DNA of 64,000 nucleotides from Bacillota bacterium (GTDB lineage: Bacteria; Bacillota; TC1). Made by a program: the position numbers and the translations under genes. The stretch is from positions 1 to 64,000 of the forward strand of contig JAQUGR010000004.1 of NCBI GenBank assembly GCA_028683955.1, given 5' to 3'. Numbering within the stretch: position 1 is the first letter of the stretch; the number at the start of each line of letters is the position of its first letter. This document shows, in pieces, positions 6,988 through 16,659 of the stretch. A model generated the notes under the pieces. That model saw only the letters and a list, made by a program, of their open reading frames with translations. It made no database searches and was not told the origin of the DNA.

Positions 6988-7869
6988 CTATATACTCTCC
7001 TTTTTCAATAATGGAAAGCCAAGACTTTCTCTTTTTTCTAAATATGCCAAAGCACATTTTTTCGCTAAATTTCTAATTCTAGCAATATAATTTGTTCTTT
7101 CAGTTACACTGATAGCGCCTCTTGCATCTAAAAGATTAAATGCATGTGAGCATTTTAAAACATAATCATATGCTGGTAATTCAAGACCAGCCAACAAACA
7201 AATATCTGCTTCATTTTCATATATATTAAAAAGTTGTAATAGGTTTTCTTTATTAGATACTTCAAAATTATATGTTGAAAATTCAATTTCATTATTTAAA
7301 TATATGTCTCCATATTTAATGCCTTTAGTCCAATCAATATCATATACACTATCTTTTTCTTGGACATAAACAGCAATTCTTTCTAATCCATAAGTAATTT
7401 CTACAGATACAGGCTTACATTCAATACCACCACACTGTTGAAAATAAGTGAACTGGGATATTTCTTGGCCATCAAGCCATACTTCCCAACCAAGGCCCCA
7501 GGCTCCAAGTGTAGGTGATTCCCAATTGTCTTCAACAAATCTAATATCATGTTGTAAAGGATTAATCCCAAGTACTTCTAAACTTTCCAAATAAAGTTCT
7601 TGAATATTATTTGGACTCGGTTTAATAATGACTTGGTATTGAAAGTAATGTTGTAATCTATTTGGATTTTCTCCATAACGGCCATCTGTAGGTCTCCTAC
7701 AAGGTTCAATATAAGCTGAAGCAAATGGTTCTGGACCTATTGCTTTTAAAAATGTATTTGGATTCATGGTTCCTGCACCTTTTTCAATATCATAAGGCAT
7801 CTGTATAACACAACCTTTTTCTCCCCAATATTCGTTTAATTTCATAATCATATCTTGAAATGTAAGCAT
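6988..7869 (-). CDS. glyQ: Glycine-tRNA ligase alpha subunit
   Basis: Catalytic alpha subunit of the heterotetrameric glycyl-tRNA synthetase. At 293 residues it has normal length and opens [20 protein letters not shown]. The class II core is visible in [15 protein letters not shown] and in [20 protein letters not shown]. It is directly followed by glyS. Its start lies one base after the stop of the lipase/ADP-ribosylglycohydrolase fusion gene, an unusual upstream neighbour in an otherwise standard recO-glyQS order. Confidence 0.96.
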
Positions 7870-7870
7870 A

Positions 7871-9703
7871 TTAATGTTTCTTCATCCTTTCATCGAATAT
7901 ATTTCCTGCAATATTTAATAATTCTATTCTTATATCGATTTGTTCTCTATATTTAAAATCGATTGTTTTTAACCCTCTATAAAGACCAGTTAAACCACCA
8001 CACAATGATCCAATTTCTTGTGCATTTTCTATTTTTGCTAAAGTGTTAATTAAATCATCAAAATTTTCAGTAATATTAAATAATGCCAAACTATTTAATA
8101 ATGTTTCAACAACATAACTACTTCCTTTTATTTCATCAAGTTTCATATTTTTATACTGCCCATAATAAAGATGGCTACTAAAAATATCATGTAAAGCTTG
8201 TTTTTTTGATTGACCTTTAAGTAAATTATAGACTAACCAAGAATATAGCTGACAAGCCTCTTTAACTCTTGAATCAAAATGAGTCATGTTAGATTGTAAT
8301 CCAGCTAATGTTATAACAATATCTAATTCTTCATACATTAAGGCAATAGGCAAGCAACGTTTTAGAGAGCAACTTCCTGCAGTTTTATTATTTAGTATTT
8401 GATGTGCATTTTTAGCTCCAGTGGGAAAGCTACCAGTCTCGATTGCATTTTTAATTGCAATATTCGTAGTATTCCCAATATATTGTCTATCTAAAGCATG
8501 CCATTCAATTATTTCTTCTCCAATAGATATCAATGGGTCATCAGGTTCTTTAATCAAGCCTTTAGCCACTGCCATAGTTAATTTTGATGCATCAGTTAAG
8601 CCTATTTTTTTATTACCATAATAGTCTCCAATTCCTGTTCCAATTATGCCTCCACGGATCTTATCAAGTATAGTAACAGCTTCATTATATTTTTCAACTC
8701 TTTGAATCACTTTACCTCTGATACTCTTACGTATTATATGTGCAGAATCTTCAAACATATTTTTGGCATGATATTCCAAAGTTTGAACTTTAGATACAGT
8801 TAAAAATCTAATAGGTTCAACATTTATATGTTCTTTAGCATAATGAATTAATTCTAAATCTTTTAAATGCCCCATGTTTTCAATTATCAAATATTTACCA
8901 ATATGACCAAAATTCTCTATATTTTTAATAAATATATAAAGTATATTATTTAATAAGTCATCTTCATTAATTAAATTTATTACTCCATCAAGAAATTTTT
9001 GTGTTTCTACTTCATTTATTAAATGTTTGTATTCTTGATTCTTATTTAGCAAAAGATCTTCAATATATTCAATTCTTAAAGGTGCACTATTATATGTTAA
9101 GGCAGATACTTCAATATTATTTAAAAGTGCAAAATGATAAATTTCGCTATAAGCAACCACTGTAACCGCACCGCCAAGAGAATTTCCTGTTATAATAATT
9201 TCTTTAGGCATATTGCCATTGTTTTTTTGTTTATACTCTTCAATAATTCCGAGGATTCTTTGTCCAACAATTTTAAATTGTGTTGGTATTAAATTCCCTT
9301 TTGGTATTAAAAGTCTTGCATCATTGTCAATCCAGTCTTCAACACTTTTATCTGAGCCTGCAATGCCAATTATTAATACTTTATCTTTATAAAAAGATAT
9401 ACTTTCATAACCTGTTCTTTCATCTTCTGTAAAACAAAGATAATTCCATTTTTTCTTGTAAATATCTAAATATCCTTCATAACAACTATCCGCAAAATTC
9501 AAGGGAATTATATCTTTAGCTTTTTCAATAAAATTTTCTTTAGAAGTATTTTGAACACTAACTAAATCTTGCATAACTTCTTTTGAATAGGACAATAGTA
9601 ATATATCTGAAATAACATCAAGAAATTGGCCGTTTAACCGGTCATGCAATTTACTAATATCAGTTTTTTTCATTTTCCTTATATTTTTATCAAGTATCAA
9701 CAT
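7871..9703 (-). CDS. Fusion of lipase-like alpha/beta hydrolase and degenerate ADP-ribosylglycohydrolase domain
   Basis: This 610-residue protein has two recognisable parts. Residues about 70-290 look like a class 3 lipase/DUF2974-type hydrolase: an oxyanion-loop-like [13 protein letters not shown] and the nucleophile elbow GNSLGG with S175; an acid near 248 and H267 could complete a triad. Residues about 348-580 follow the ADP-ribosylglycohydrolase (DraG/ARH) pattern: [58 protein letters not shown] and a final [13 protein letters not shown]. The metal-binding TDDT is TDAS and the C-terminal DxD is N-A-Q, so hydrolysis is doubtful. No signal peptide or membrane segment is seen, hence cytosolic. 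It lies between recO and glyQ with two-base gaps and its own GAGG site. Substrate unknown. Confidence 0.75.
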
Positions 9704-10450
9704 TTAAACCTCAAAAGTCAACTTTTTTAGGTAATCAAAACCTGTAAACTTTTTATCTGTAATGTGTTCAATTAATTTTTCTAAAAAATAATCCAATTTT
9801 TCCAATAAAGCTTTCGTTACTTCAAATTCTTTTAATTGATCAAAACTATCAGTTTCAAGTATTTTATATATTTTAATTAAATCTGCTTCAATACAAAACC
9901 CTTCTTTAGTACAACTATCGCAAATTAGGTTTCCTTCTGAAAATTGATAAAAATAATTATCACTATTTATATTGCAAATATTACAAGCTACTAAATTTGG
10001 CTGATGTCCTAGATATAAGATACTTTTTATTAAAAAATATCTTAATAAAAATTTAGGATCTTTTGTATTACCTAATCTATTAAACGTCCAAATCAGTAAT
10101 TCAAACACTTCTTTTTGTGACATGTTATCAACTAAAACATCATTTAAAAAAACTGTCATTGTCATAGCTACGCTAGTTTTTAATAAATCTTTTCTAATAT
10201 TCATAAAGCCTTCAATTACTTGGCCTTGGTTTAGTACATAATATGCTTTACCCTTGCTTAATTGATATTCTCCATGAACTAATAAATCAGTTGATGATCT
10301 ATTTTTACTATTAAGCTTTCTAGCGCCTTTAGCCACAAAGGACAAACGTCCTCTATCTTTAGTAAATATAATAATAGATTTGTCAGAATCTCTATATTCA
10401 CGACTTAAAATAACAATCCCTTCAACAGAAAGTGTATTTCTTCCAGCCAC
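9704..10450 (-). CDS. recO: DNA repair protein RecO
   Basis: Recombination mediator that helps load RecA with RecR and anneals single strands. The 248 residues begin with an OB-fold (VEGIVILSREYRDSDKSIIIFTK), followed by a helical domain with a zinc finger near residues 154-180 (CNICN and CDSC). The start codon overlaps the last base of era, and the gene forms the classical ybeY-cdd-era-recO series. Length is normal and nothing is missing. Confidence 0.95.
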   Translation of the reverse strand: MAGRNTLSVEGIVILSREYRDSDKSIIIFTKDRGRLSFVAKGARKLNSKNRSSTDLLVHGEYQLSKGKAYYVLNQGQVIEGFMNIRKDLLKTSVAMTMTVFLNDVLVDNMSQKEVFELLIWTFNRLGNTKDPKFLLRYFLIKSILYLGHQPNLVACNICNINSDNYFYQFSEGNLICDSCTKEGFCIEADLIKIYKILETDSFDQLKEFEVTKALLEKLDYFLEKLIEHITDKKFTGFDYLKKLTFEV

Positions 10451-13567: not shown

Positions 13568-15217
13568 TTATTTATTAAAGGAATCTTTTAAAGATACCAC
13601 TCTATTAAAAATCAATCTTTCATCAGTACTATCCTTATCTAAAGCGAAATAACCATTTCTTAAAAATTGACAGGCATTATCTACACTAGTATCTTTCAAA
13701 AAGGATTCAACATAGCCTTGACTAACAACTTTTGATTTAGGATTAATATTTTCTCTGAAATCGCCTTTTTCCGGATTTGCATCTACAAATAATCTATCAA
13801 ATAATCTAAACTCACATGGCAAGGCATGTTCAACTGAAATCCAATGTATTGTGCCTTTTACTTTTCTACCATCAGTAGACCAACCACCTTTTGTTGTTCC
13901 ATCATATGTGCAATAGACTTCGATAACTTCTCCGTTGTCATCCACTTTATAATCTTCACATTTAAGATAATATGCCCCTTTAAAACGCACTTCATTCCCT
14001 TTGAAAAGTCTTCTGTAGCCTTTTTGTGGGTTTAATGAAAAATCACTTTTTTCTATATATAACTCTTTAGTAAAAGGAATTTTCCTTTTGCCAAGTTCTA
14101 TTTGTTCTGGATTTACATCTACTTCTAACCAGTCTACATCATTTTCAAAATTTGTTACTATTACTTTCAAGGGTTCAACTACAGCCATACCTCTTACAGC
14201 TGTAAAATTGAGTTCTTCTCTTACTGCAGCTTCTAATTGAGATATATCTACCACACTATTACTTTTAGCTATACCAGCCTCAATTACAAATTTAATTATC
14301 GCATCCTTTGGATATCCACGTCTACGTAGTCCAGATATTGTTGGCATTCTTGGATCATCCCAACCGTCAACTAAACCTTCTTCTACTAATGCCAAAAGCT
14401 TTCTCTTACTCATTACTGTATAGTTTATATTTAATCTAGCAAATTCTCTTTGTTTAGGTTTTTGTTTAAATTCAAGTTTTTCAATAATAAAATCATATAA
14501 AGGCCTGTGATCTTCAAATTCTAAACTACAAAAAGAATTAGTTATATTTTCAAGAGCATCTTCAATTGGATGGGCATAATCATACATAGGATAAATATTC
14601 CAACCTTCACCTACATGATGATGATTTTTTTTTAATATTCTATATATAATAGGATCTCTCATATTAAGATTTGGTGATGCCATGTCAATTTTAAGTCTTA
14701 ATACCATGGAACCTTCATCATGCAAGCCATCTTTCATTTCCTTGAATAATTTAAGATTATCTTCTATTGTTCTATCTCTAAAGGGACTATTTTTGCCTGG
14801 TGAAGTTAAAGTTCCTCTGTATTCTCTCATTTCTTCAGGAGATAACTGACATACATAAGCTAATCCTGCACTAATTAAGTTTAATGCAAATTCATACATC
14901 TTACCAAAATATTCTGACGCATAAAATATATTTCCATCAACTTTAAAACCAAGCCATCTGATATCATTTTTTATAGCTTCCACATATTCCAAGTCTTCTT
15001 TAAGAGGATTTGTATCATCAAACCTTAAATTACACTTACCACCATACTTTTCAGCTAAGCCAAAGTTTACTGAAATAGCTTTCGCATGACCAATATGTAA
15101 ATAACCATTTGGTTCAGGTGGAAATCTAGTAATTATTTCGCTATAATTACCAGAATTTAAATCATCAGTAATAATATCATCTAAAAATCCAAAATTAACT
15201 TCTTTAAAATTCAGCAT
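13568..15217 (-). CDS. glnS: Glutamine-tRNA ligase
   Basis: Class I synthetase charging tRNA-Gln directly with glutamine. The 549-residue protein has the HIGH region PPEPNGYLHIGHAKAIS, the GlnRS-type segment RFDDTNPLKEDLEYVEAI, a KMSKS equivalent VMSKRKL, and two C-terminal beta-barrel anticodon domains. No YqeY-type extension is present. It is two bases behind gltX, so both are co-transcribed. GlnRS is uncommon in Firmicutes, which mostly use GluRS plus GatCAB; a dedicated GlnRS implies that GatCAB may be absent or needed only for tRNA-Asn. Confidence 0.94.
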   Translation of the reverse strand: MLNFKEVNFGFLDDIITDDLNSGNYSEIITRFPPEPNGYLHIGHAKAISVNFGLAEKYGGKCNLRFDDTNPLKEDLEYVEAIKNDIRWLGFKVDGNIFYASEYFGKMYEFALNLISAGLAYVCQLSPEEMREYRGTLTSPGKNSPFRDRTIEDNLKLFKEMKDGLHDEGSMVLRLKIDMASPNLNMRDPIIYRILKKNHHHVGEGWNIYPMYDYAHPIEDALENITNSFCSLEFEDHRPLYDFIIEKLEFKQKPKQREFARLNINYTVMSKRKLLALVEEGLVDGWDDPRMPTISGLRRRGYPKDAIIKFVIEAGIAKSNSVVDISQLEAAVREELNFTAVRGMAVVEPLKVIVTNFENDVDWLEVDVNPEQIELGKRKIPFTKELYIEKSDFSLNPQKGYRRLFKGNEVRFKGAYYLKCEDYKVDDNGEVIEVYCTYDGTTKGGWSTDGRKVKGTIHWISVEHALPCEFRLFDRLFVDANPEKGDFRENINPKSKVVSQGYVESFLKDTSVDNACQFLRNGYFALDKDSTDERLIFNRVVSLKDSFNK

Positions 15218-15219
15218 AT

Positions 15220-16659
15220 TTATTCACCCTTCATCAATTTAACAATAGCTTGATTTATTCTCTCTAAACTTTCTTCCTTACCTAAGATATCAATTAACTC
15301 AATAGCACCTCCAGGGGATTGTTCAGTACCAGTTAGGGCTACCCTTAAAGGCCAAAGTAATTGTCCATTTTTCAAGTTATTGTCACTTGCAAGTTTTATT
15401 AAAGTATCATGTAATATATCTTGAGTAAATTCAATATCTTCTATCTTTTCTAATTTATCAAATACTAACAATAAGCTATTTAGGGCAATTTCTTTATCTG
15501 TTTTCATTTTTTTATGGATATATAAATCTGTGGAATACTCTGAGACTTCCATGAATACTACTAAATGACTTTCCACTTCTGTAATTAAATCAATTCTCTT
15601 TTGTAAAAGTTTTGCGATCTTCATTACACTCATTTTTTCAGTTCCAAGAAAAGATATTATTGGCTTTTCAATCAACTTGGTAAAAACTTCTAGATCCATT
15701 TTTCTTATATATTCACCGTTCATCCATTTTAGTTTTGTTTTATCAAAAACTGAAGGTGATTTACTAATACCCTCAATTGTAAAATTTTCTTCTAATTCTT
15801 TTAATGTAAAAAATTCTCTTTCATCACCAGGGTTCCAGCCAAGTAGAGCTATAAAATTTAAAACAGCTTCAACCAAGTAACCTTCTTCTAATAAATCTTC
15901 AAAACTTTTATCACCAAGTCTTTTTGACAATTTTTGTCCATTTTCATTTAGAATTAAAGGTAAATGAACATATGTAGGAATTTCCCACCCGAAAGAGTTA
16001 TATAAAAGATTGTACTTTGGAGTTGATGATAAGTATTCACTACCTCTTACTACATGAGTAATGTTCATTAAATGATCATCAATTACATTAGCAAAATTAT
16101 ATGTTGGATAACCATCGGTTTTTAATAGCACCTGGTCTTCTAATTCTTTATTATCAACTTTTATTGTTCCATATACTACATCATCAAAACTAGTTTCCCC
16201 TGTTGTAGGCATCTTTTGTCTTATAACATATGACAAGCCATTTTTAAGATTTTCTTCTATTTCACCAAGGGACAAGTTTCTGCAATGATTATCATAATGT
16301 GCAAAATCCCCTGAATCTTCCTGACTCTTCCTCAAATCATCCAATCTTTCTTTAGTACAAAAGCAATAATAAGCTTTACCTTTTTTAACTAAATCTTCTG
16401 CATAAGGTTTATAAATATCCAATCTTTCACTTTGAAAATATGGACCTTCATCATATTTAATACCAACTAACTCTAATGTTTTATAAATAACGGCTAAAGA
16501 GTCTTCCACTAATCTTTCTTGATCAGTATCTTCAATTCTTAAAATAAATTTGCCAGCATTTTTTTTAGCAATTAAATATTCATATAATGCTGTACGTAAA
16601 TTGCCTATGTGCATATATCCTGTTGGGCTGGGTGCATATCTAGTTCTTACTTCTTTCAA
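15220..16659 (-). CDS. gltX: Glutamate-tRNA ligase
   Basis: Class I synthetase charging tRNA-Glu. The 479 residues include the HIGH equivalent YAPSPTGYMHIGNLRTAL at the N-terminus, IEDTDQERLVEDS, the KMSKS equivalent KLSKRLGDKS, and a helical C-terminal anticodon-binding domain. It follows the HIT gene by 12 bases. With glnS as its downstream partner, this GluRS is likely discriminating (tRNA-Glu only), which is an inference from context. Confidence 0.95.
   Translation of the reverse strand: MKEVRTRYAPSPTGYMHIGNLRTALYEYLIAKKNAGKFILRIEDTDQERLVEDSLAVIYKTLELVGIKYDEGPYFQSERLDIYKPYAEDLVKKGKAYYCFCTKERLDDLRKSQEDSGDFAHYDNHCRNLSLGEIEENLKNGLSYVIRQKMPTTGETSFDDVVYGTIKVDNKELEDQVLLKTDGYPTYNFANVIDDHLMNITHVVRGSEYLSSTPKYNLLYNSFGWEIPTYVHLPLILNENGQKLSKRLGDKSFEDLLEEGYLVEAVLNFIALLGWNPGDEREFFTLKELEENFTIEGISKSPSVFDKTKLKWMNGEYIRKMDLEVFTKLIEKPIISFLGTEKMSVMKIAKLLQKRIDLITEVESHLVVFMEVSEYSTDLYIHKKMKTDKEIALNSLLLVFDKLEKIEDIEFTQDILHDTLIKLASDNNLKNGQLLWPLRVALTGTEQSPGGAIELIDILGKEESLERINQAIVKLMKGE

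Follow-up and report, generated by a model that had tools for sequence, protein, structure and literature searches.

A fusion gene between recO and glyQ

The window, by which we mean the whole 64,000-nucleotide stretch of DNA that was analysed, contains a housekeeping block with ybeY, cdd, era, recO, glyQ, glyS and the genes for RNase J and a calcineurin-like phosphoesterase, and this block encloses, between recO and glyQ, a gene encoding a protein of two domains (Table 1). The N-terminal half is probably a lipase-like (Lipase_3/Mbeg1-like) serine hydrolase and putatively active, as judged from its motifs, while the C-terminal half belongs to the ADP-ribosyl hydrolase (ARH) family. The glyQ orthologues at matching places of related genomes are 72-95% identical. 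Elsewhere in the window, glnS and gltX are neighbours (13568-16659), and the genome encodes both GlnRS and GluRS, a combination that is unusual among Clostridia-like bacteria.

Table 1. Genes and features at the recO-glyQ locus (window coordinates; residue numbers refer to the fusion protein).
Feature	Position	Strand	Basis
Whole gene: lipase-like serine hydrolase (putative) and pseudo-ARH fusion, 610 aa, ATG start	7871..9703	minus	Open reading frame; fusion at the matching site in 5/5 genomes of the genus
recO, directly upstream, 0 bp gap	9704..10450	minus	TIGR00613
glyQ (glycyl-tRNA synthetase alpha chain), directly downstream, one base between	6988..7869	minus	Sequence
Lipase-like alpha/beta hydrolase domain (probable), residues 1-300	8804..9703	minus	Pfam Lipase_3 and PGAP1 below cut-off; weak DUF2974/Mbeg1-like match; predicted strands
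GNSLGG nucleophile elbow (173-178) with putative Ser175	9170..9187	minus	Invariant 5/5; GHSLGG in the decayed sister-genus copy; between predicted strand and helix
Asp249, putative catalytic acid	8957..8959	minus	Invariant 5/5; kept in the sister-genus copy (NNGDLLNN), neighbouring D248 not
His292, putative catalytic histidine	8828..8830	minus	Invariant 5/5; kept in the sister-genus copy (EEHIDL), H287 not
Long predicted helix, residues 303-363, bridging both domains into ARH helix 1	8615..8797	minus	AlphaFold2 model; 303-321 low confidence
Pseudo-ARH domain (PF03747 fold), residues 343-608	7880..8677	minus	Pfam; model; Foldseek
Site of the ~28-residue deletion (residues 364-369), Glu-flap removed	8597..8614	minus	Alignment with 55 + 27 other ARHs
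TDAS (370-373) in place of the metal motif TDDT; D371 retained but not D372	8585..8596	minus	Five-genome comparison
Tyr408 at the DraG Asp97 position	8480..8482	minus	Alignment; D97N structure 2woe fixes the position
GSCSLKR (443-449) in place of GNGxLMR; Lys448 replaces Met in 5/5	8357..8377	minus	Alignment
QSNMTHFD (470-477), retained TH pocket motif	8273..8296	minus	100% invariant in five genomes
ENAQE (559-563) in place of the metal motif GDxDT; Glu563 replaces Thr in 5/5	8015..8029	minus	Alignment

The N-terminal half resembles a lipase

The Lipase_3 profile scored 19 bits against a cut-off of 22, and both Lipase_3 and PGAP1 matched below threshold in all five sampled genomes of the genus. 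A weak match to plasmid-encoded DUF2974/Mbeg1-like proteins extended over the elbow region (E 1e-3). In the structural model, strands were predicted at residues 87-94, 99-106, 109-116, 168-173 and 198-203, and the elbow, which is invariant in the five genomes, is placed between the strand 168-173 and a helix at 178-194. The core of this half (87-116 and 140-240) was modelled fairly confidently. The region 244-321, which harbors Asp249 and His292, was of low confidence, and the apparently intact triad S175/D249/H292 is for this reason assigned purely by conservation.

The ARH domain retains its fold but has lost the metal site

PF03747 (ADP_ribosyl_GH) matched residues 356-581 with an E-value of 3.6e-23 and 83.1 bits against a cut-off of 26.2. 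As had been proposed in the first-pass annotation, the structure was predicted and superposed on known ARHs. AlphaFold2 was run on an alignment of 60 rows (five proteins of the genus and 55 other ARHs from viral contigs) and gave an all-helical ARH fold with a pLDDT of 91-98 across residues 341-600, the input consisting mostly of canonical ARHs and thereby biasing the model toward this fold; an earlier model from five rows (pLDDT 57) was used solely as showing an ARH match. Foldseek searches with the ARH model returned Tri1, DraG, a Thermus ARH-like protein and ARH3, and the superposition on DraG (2woc) reached a TM-score of 0.77 by target with an rmsd of 2.9.

The first-pass annotation had reported that TDDT is replaced by TDAS and GDxDT by ENAQE, and that the segments GIGDYYG, GSCSLKR, MTHFDSR and YVVETL remain. 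All of these were found as described, and the motif comparisons were correct. In contrast, the claim that the domain aligns without gaps was wrong, as the stretch from GIGDYYG to TDAS is shorter by about 28 residues, with 6 residues in the window protein and 34 in L053, the stand-alone ARH closest to it. The deletion removes the Glu-flap glutamate, which is 98% conserved in the other alignment rows. Also beyond what had been noted before, the equivalent of DraG Asp97 is a tyrosine, or an asparagine in one member of the genus (in this column the D97N structure 2woe reads N where 2woc reads D), and the counterpart of GNGxLMR has changed to GSCSLKR, with GNCSLKR in most relatives and GNASLKR in the remainder.

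Three acidic residues absent from the window protein, namely the latter Asp of TDDT and the two of GDxDT, were conserved in 100% of the 55 other ARHs in the 60-row alignment, where the figure for TDDT is biased because the rows had been collected by patterns including TDDT or GNG-LMR. A second set, comprising 27 ARHs from Bacillota genomes retrieved with the fusion-family or the PF03747 profile and thus free of this bias, had TDDT in 25 of 27 proteins and DxDT in 25 of the 26 complete ones, one being truncated before the second motif.

A search for homologues with the same altered motifs, likewise proposed earlier, demonstrated that the loss of the ligands recurs throughout the genus. Among T370, D371, D372, D560, D562, T563 and the Glu-flap, D371 alone is retained in all five genomes, in which the first metal motif reads TDAS, TDAT, TDAT, TDGT and GDAS, respectively. 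The GD motif is kept in three of the five members (60-row alignment). The acidic residues said to hold the metals have, hence, been replaced as claimed and the binuclear metal site is lost in every member, D371 being the exception. Like Asp371, the residues Lys448, Arg449, His475 and Glu563 do not vary among the five genomes. An assembly or sequencing error, or mere chance, was ruled out, since five separate genomes agree on the same pattern. Metal ligands at shifted positions were rejected by the alignment: residue 559 varies (E in the window protein, K in one member and D in another), and the invariant E563 is considered below as part of an alternative. By profile match and fold, the protein is a member of the ARH family by descent, and its motifs lack the features of a catalytic ARH, namely the TDDT/GDxDT ligands, the Glu-flap and Asp97. 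The protein has neither metal site nor Glu-flap left, which strongly indicates that ADP-ribosyl hydrolysis by the family mechanism is absent.

Both halves are under purifying selection

For the closest pair of genomes (G000-G003), the N-terminal half had a dN/dS of 0.145/0.90 and the ARH half one of 0.158/0.96, i.e., about 0.16 each, as determined by a simple method (NG86) at saturated or near-saturated synonymous sites; the other pairs were more saturated. Both domains are under equal purifying selection. Across the genus the fusion proteins were 74, 73, 65 and 44% identical, which is close to the 82, 77, 71 and 53% of GlyS and slightly below the identities of RecO.

Within the ARH domain, 16 of the 21 positions in the pocket segments (408-413, 443-449 and 470-477; TH, GNCSLKR, IGKTT) were invariant, as were 3 of 20 in the metal segments and 64 of 222 in the remainder. 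The difference between pocket and remainder (Fisher p 3e-5) is of descriptive value, as the segments were chosen post hoc once the alignment had been seen. Over the whole protein, conservation peaked at two stretches, QSNMTHFD of the ARH pocket and GNSLGGAV around the hydrolase elbow.

Distribution and a decayed copy in a sister genus

A fusion protein of 610-613 aa is encoded between recO and glyQ in all five sampled genomes of the genus, and the public contig records with the fusion are metagenome-assembled genomes labelled Bacillota or Fusobacteria bacterium. In the neighbouring family the fusion is absent: recO and glyQ are adjacent in G006 and G008, and in G009 they are separated by an open reading frame which by inspection of its sequence is dihydrofolate-reductase-like. 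Among 398 genomes of the phylum, the N-terminal domain was not found outside the family of the genus (f1). A search of assembled-genome contigs produced matches from the same genus alone; its patterns were drawn from the N-terminal half, so that remote fusions could be missed. Plasmids gave ARH-only matches and no fusion. An origin as a defence system or from a phage was rejected, as the protein had no PADLOC match and no IMG/VR viral or phage record contained the fusion. The distribution is, therefore, narrow and comprises one genus and one decayed copy.

This copy occupies the recO-glyQ site of a sister-genus genome, G005 (L039 4041-6915; G005:C1 about 826.0-828.9 kb), and consists of fragments in several frames with stop codons. 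As the surrounding recO, era, cdd, ybeY, glyQ and glyS are each intact in one frame, the fragmentation reflects decay of the gene and not poor sequence. The copy clusters with the fusion family (support 96/94). Its hydrolase fragments include GHSLGG, NNGDLLNN and EEHIDL, and its ARH fragments read GDSYG, SDDT, SAGNGSLMRTLP, THFD and GGDRDT, the canonical set, with GNGSLMR as the third ARH motif. The ancestral fusion would accordingly have possessed the full motif set. The simplest history compatible with these motifs would start from an ancestor with a complete ARH and a lipase-like domain; the protein would then have been retained in the genus without its metal site, and the gene would have been lost in the sister lineage. 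The length of the flap loop falls from 34 residues in L053 to 16 in the decayed copy and 6 in the window protein, which suggests that the loop began to shorten before the acidic residues were lost.

Other ARH and macro-domain genes

The genome with the fusion also encodes a canonical stand-alone ARH with TDDT and GGDSDT (L001 1411-2226, minus strand; G000:C1 about 43.9-44.7 kb), directly upstream of an aldehyde-dehydrogenase-like gene, and each member of the genus has one such ARH. A 341-aa macro-domain protein (L160 1447-2472; G000:C12 about 71.8-72.8 kb) has a C-terminal extension of ~165 residues without a Pfam match, and its gene adjoins an open reading frame resembling a von Willebrand-type protein. 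Neither the stand-alone ARH nor the macro-domain protein, both present in most members of the genus, occurs in the sister-genus genome; this loss together with that of the fusion is a single case and suggestive only. Degenerate motifs occur in two further stand-alone ARHs, TEDT/GNEALMR/GGNANT in L068 (5-967) and TDET/DNGAILN in L071 (1462-2355, minus strand), which by these motifs are possible further pseudo-ARHs in Bacillota.

A probable role for the pseudo-ARH domain

We consider it fairly probable that the pseudo-ARH domain has been reused as a binding or regulatory module for the attached hydrolase. The computed support consists of the fold family, the ligand loss in five species, the purifying selection on both halves, the conservation of the pocket and an ancestral-type copy with canonical motifs. 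The gene product would be a two-domain cytoplasmic protein, the hydrolase half of which may cut an ester or a lipid by means of Ser175. The ancestor of the ARH half would have been a DraG/Tri1-type ADP-ribosyl hydrolase that depended on metal; now that the metal site and the Glu-flap are lost, the family mechanism for cleaving ADP-ribosyl bonds would no longer operate. The old substrate pocket, presumably remodelled with Lys448, Glu563 and the conserved TH motif at its centre, would most likely bind either a nucleotide or a protein, with or without a modification; conservation and architecture suggest that such binding may place or switch the hydrolase through the long connecting helix.

The first-pass annotation had suggested selection for binding rather than hydrolysis and a possible ADP-ribose reader. 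The former stands insofar as the absent metal site, the purifying selection and the conserved pocket segments fit binding or regulation without metal-dependent hydrolysis; the term reader, in turn, is an incomplete description because the N-terminal hydrolase domain had been overlooked. A reader would bind ADP-ribose or an ADP-ribosylated macromolecule uncleaved and recruit or switch the hydrolase half. Such a role would be in line with the hyperconserved pocket segments and TH motif, and the invariant Lys448 could replace the charge of the lost metals. ADP-ribose chemistry is present in the genus, where all five members have the canonical stand-alone ARH and four of five the macro-domain protein, and the ARH3 single-ligand mutants D77A and D314A have been crystallised with ADP-ribose and Mg (7l9h, 7l9i). 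However, in characterised ARHs both metal ions are required to place ADP-ribose correctly (PMC7050489), and the window protein has lost its Glu-flap and almost every ligand; moreover, docking of ADP failed for ADPRHL1, which shows the same Asp pattern (PMC7390403). Four families of ADP-ribosyl writers were searched in the genus, where DarT, Sir2 and KptA had no match and TIR_2 occurred below the cut-off in one genome. Given the need for both metals in known ARHs and the missing writers among the families tested, the reader was kept as a possible, though doubtful, alternative. It is unlikely, in our view, that the protein is a ligand-gated lipase on one polypeptide, in which the dead ARH domain would sense a signal of the ADP-ribose type, be it free, attached to protein or a derivative, and would switch on the lipase; if true, this would be a new sensor-effector architecture with an eraser of ADP-ribosylation turned sensor.

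The ARH half might, alternatively, still be an enzyme with altered chemistry, operating with one metal on Asp371/Glu563 or metal-free via His475, Lys448 and Glu563. The invariance of these residues and of Arg449 in all five genomes, and the change of Thr563 to Glu at a metal-motif position in every member, would be consistent with such an activity. However, the positions of the catalytic Asp97 (DraG) and the Glu-flap are lost as well, and the metal segments drift unlike a working active site, which renders this decidedly unlikely. The possibility that the ARH half is decaying and persists because the N-terminal hydrolase fused to it is needed is highly improbable, since, in spite of the lost metal motifs and the decay of the entire gene in the sister genus, selection on it is as strong as on the N-terminal half, it is neither lost nor truncated in any member, and long segments are invariant at 42-74% overall identity. 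The favored reading, i.e., a dead ARH domain reused for binding or control, raises the question, which can be taken to the bench, of what its pocket binds and whether the pocket controls the partner domain.

Comparison with known systems

A limited search of the open-access literature found no description of a lipase-like domain fused to a pseudo-ARH, and the searches made for the fusion found no Lipase_3/Mbeg1-like member fused to an ARH domain. With the Lipase_3/Mbeg1-like (DUF2974) hydrolases the N-terminal half has the GxSLGG elbow in common, the similarity being remote and below the Pfam cut-off. Some Mbeg1-like proteins are antibacterial effectors that are injected by Xanthomonas (PMC6536674).

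By sequence, the closest ARH domains are those of the stand-alone Bacillota proteins L053-L055 (E about 1e-56 for L053) and of gp234 from Bacillus phage G (34% identity). The stand-alone ARHs are single-domain proteins of ~300 aa, and L053-L055 have canonical metal motifs. The activity of DraG is well established. DraG and Tri1, both ADP-ribosylarginine hydrolases (2woc, 6drh), are the nearest solved structures by sequence and fold and have the TH motif and the general pocket positions in common with the window protein, but they keep TDDT, GDxDT and, in DraG, Asp97, all of which are lost in the latter.

To our knowledge, the well-documented pseudo-ARHs are vertebrate proteins (ADPRHL1), and the role of their cleft is unsolved. 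A bacterial pseudo-ARH with an ADPRHL1-like loss of Asp residues, a fused hydrolase that can be measured and a decayed relative with ancestral motifs would, thus, represent a simple bench system. ADPRHL1 (ARH2) is a cardiac protein with no reported activity which has lost three of the four metal Asp and kept the first, equivalent to Asp55 (PMC7390403, PMC9738213); its old cleft is essential for function, despite the unsuccessful docking (PMC7390403). The window protein is similar in its ARH fold and in having lost three of four Asp and kept the same one, the first of the N-terminal pair. It differs from the vertebrate heart protein, which has no hydrolase fusion, in being bacterial, in its lipase-like fusion and in the deletion of the Glu-flap loop. 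The window protein is a pseudo-ARH of the ADPRHL1 type by similarity of kind and not by shared descent within ADPRHL1, and the Asp residues were evidently lost independently in the two. As in the case reported for ADPRHL1, a former enzyme domain looks to have taken on a new task in binding or control.
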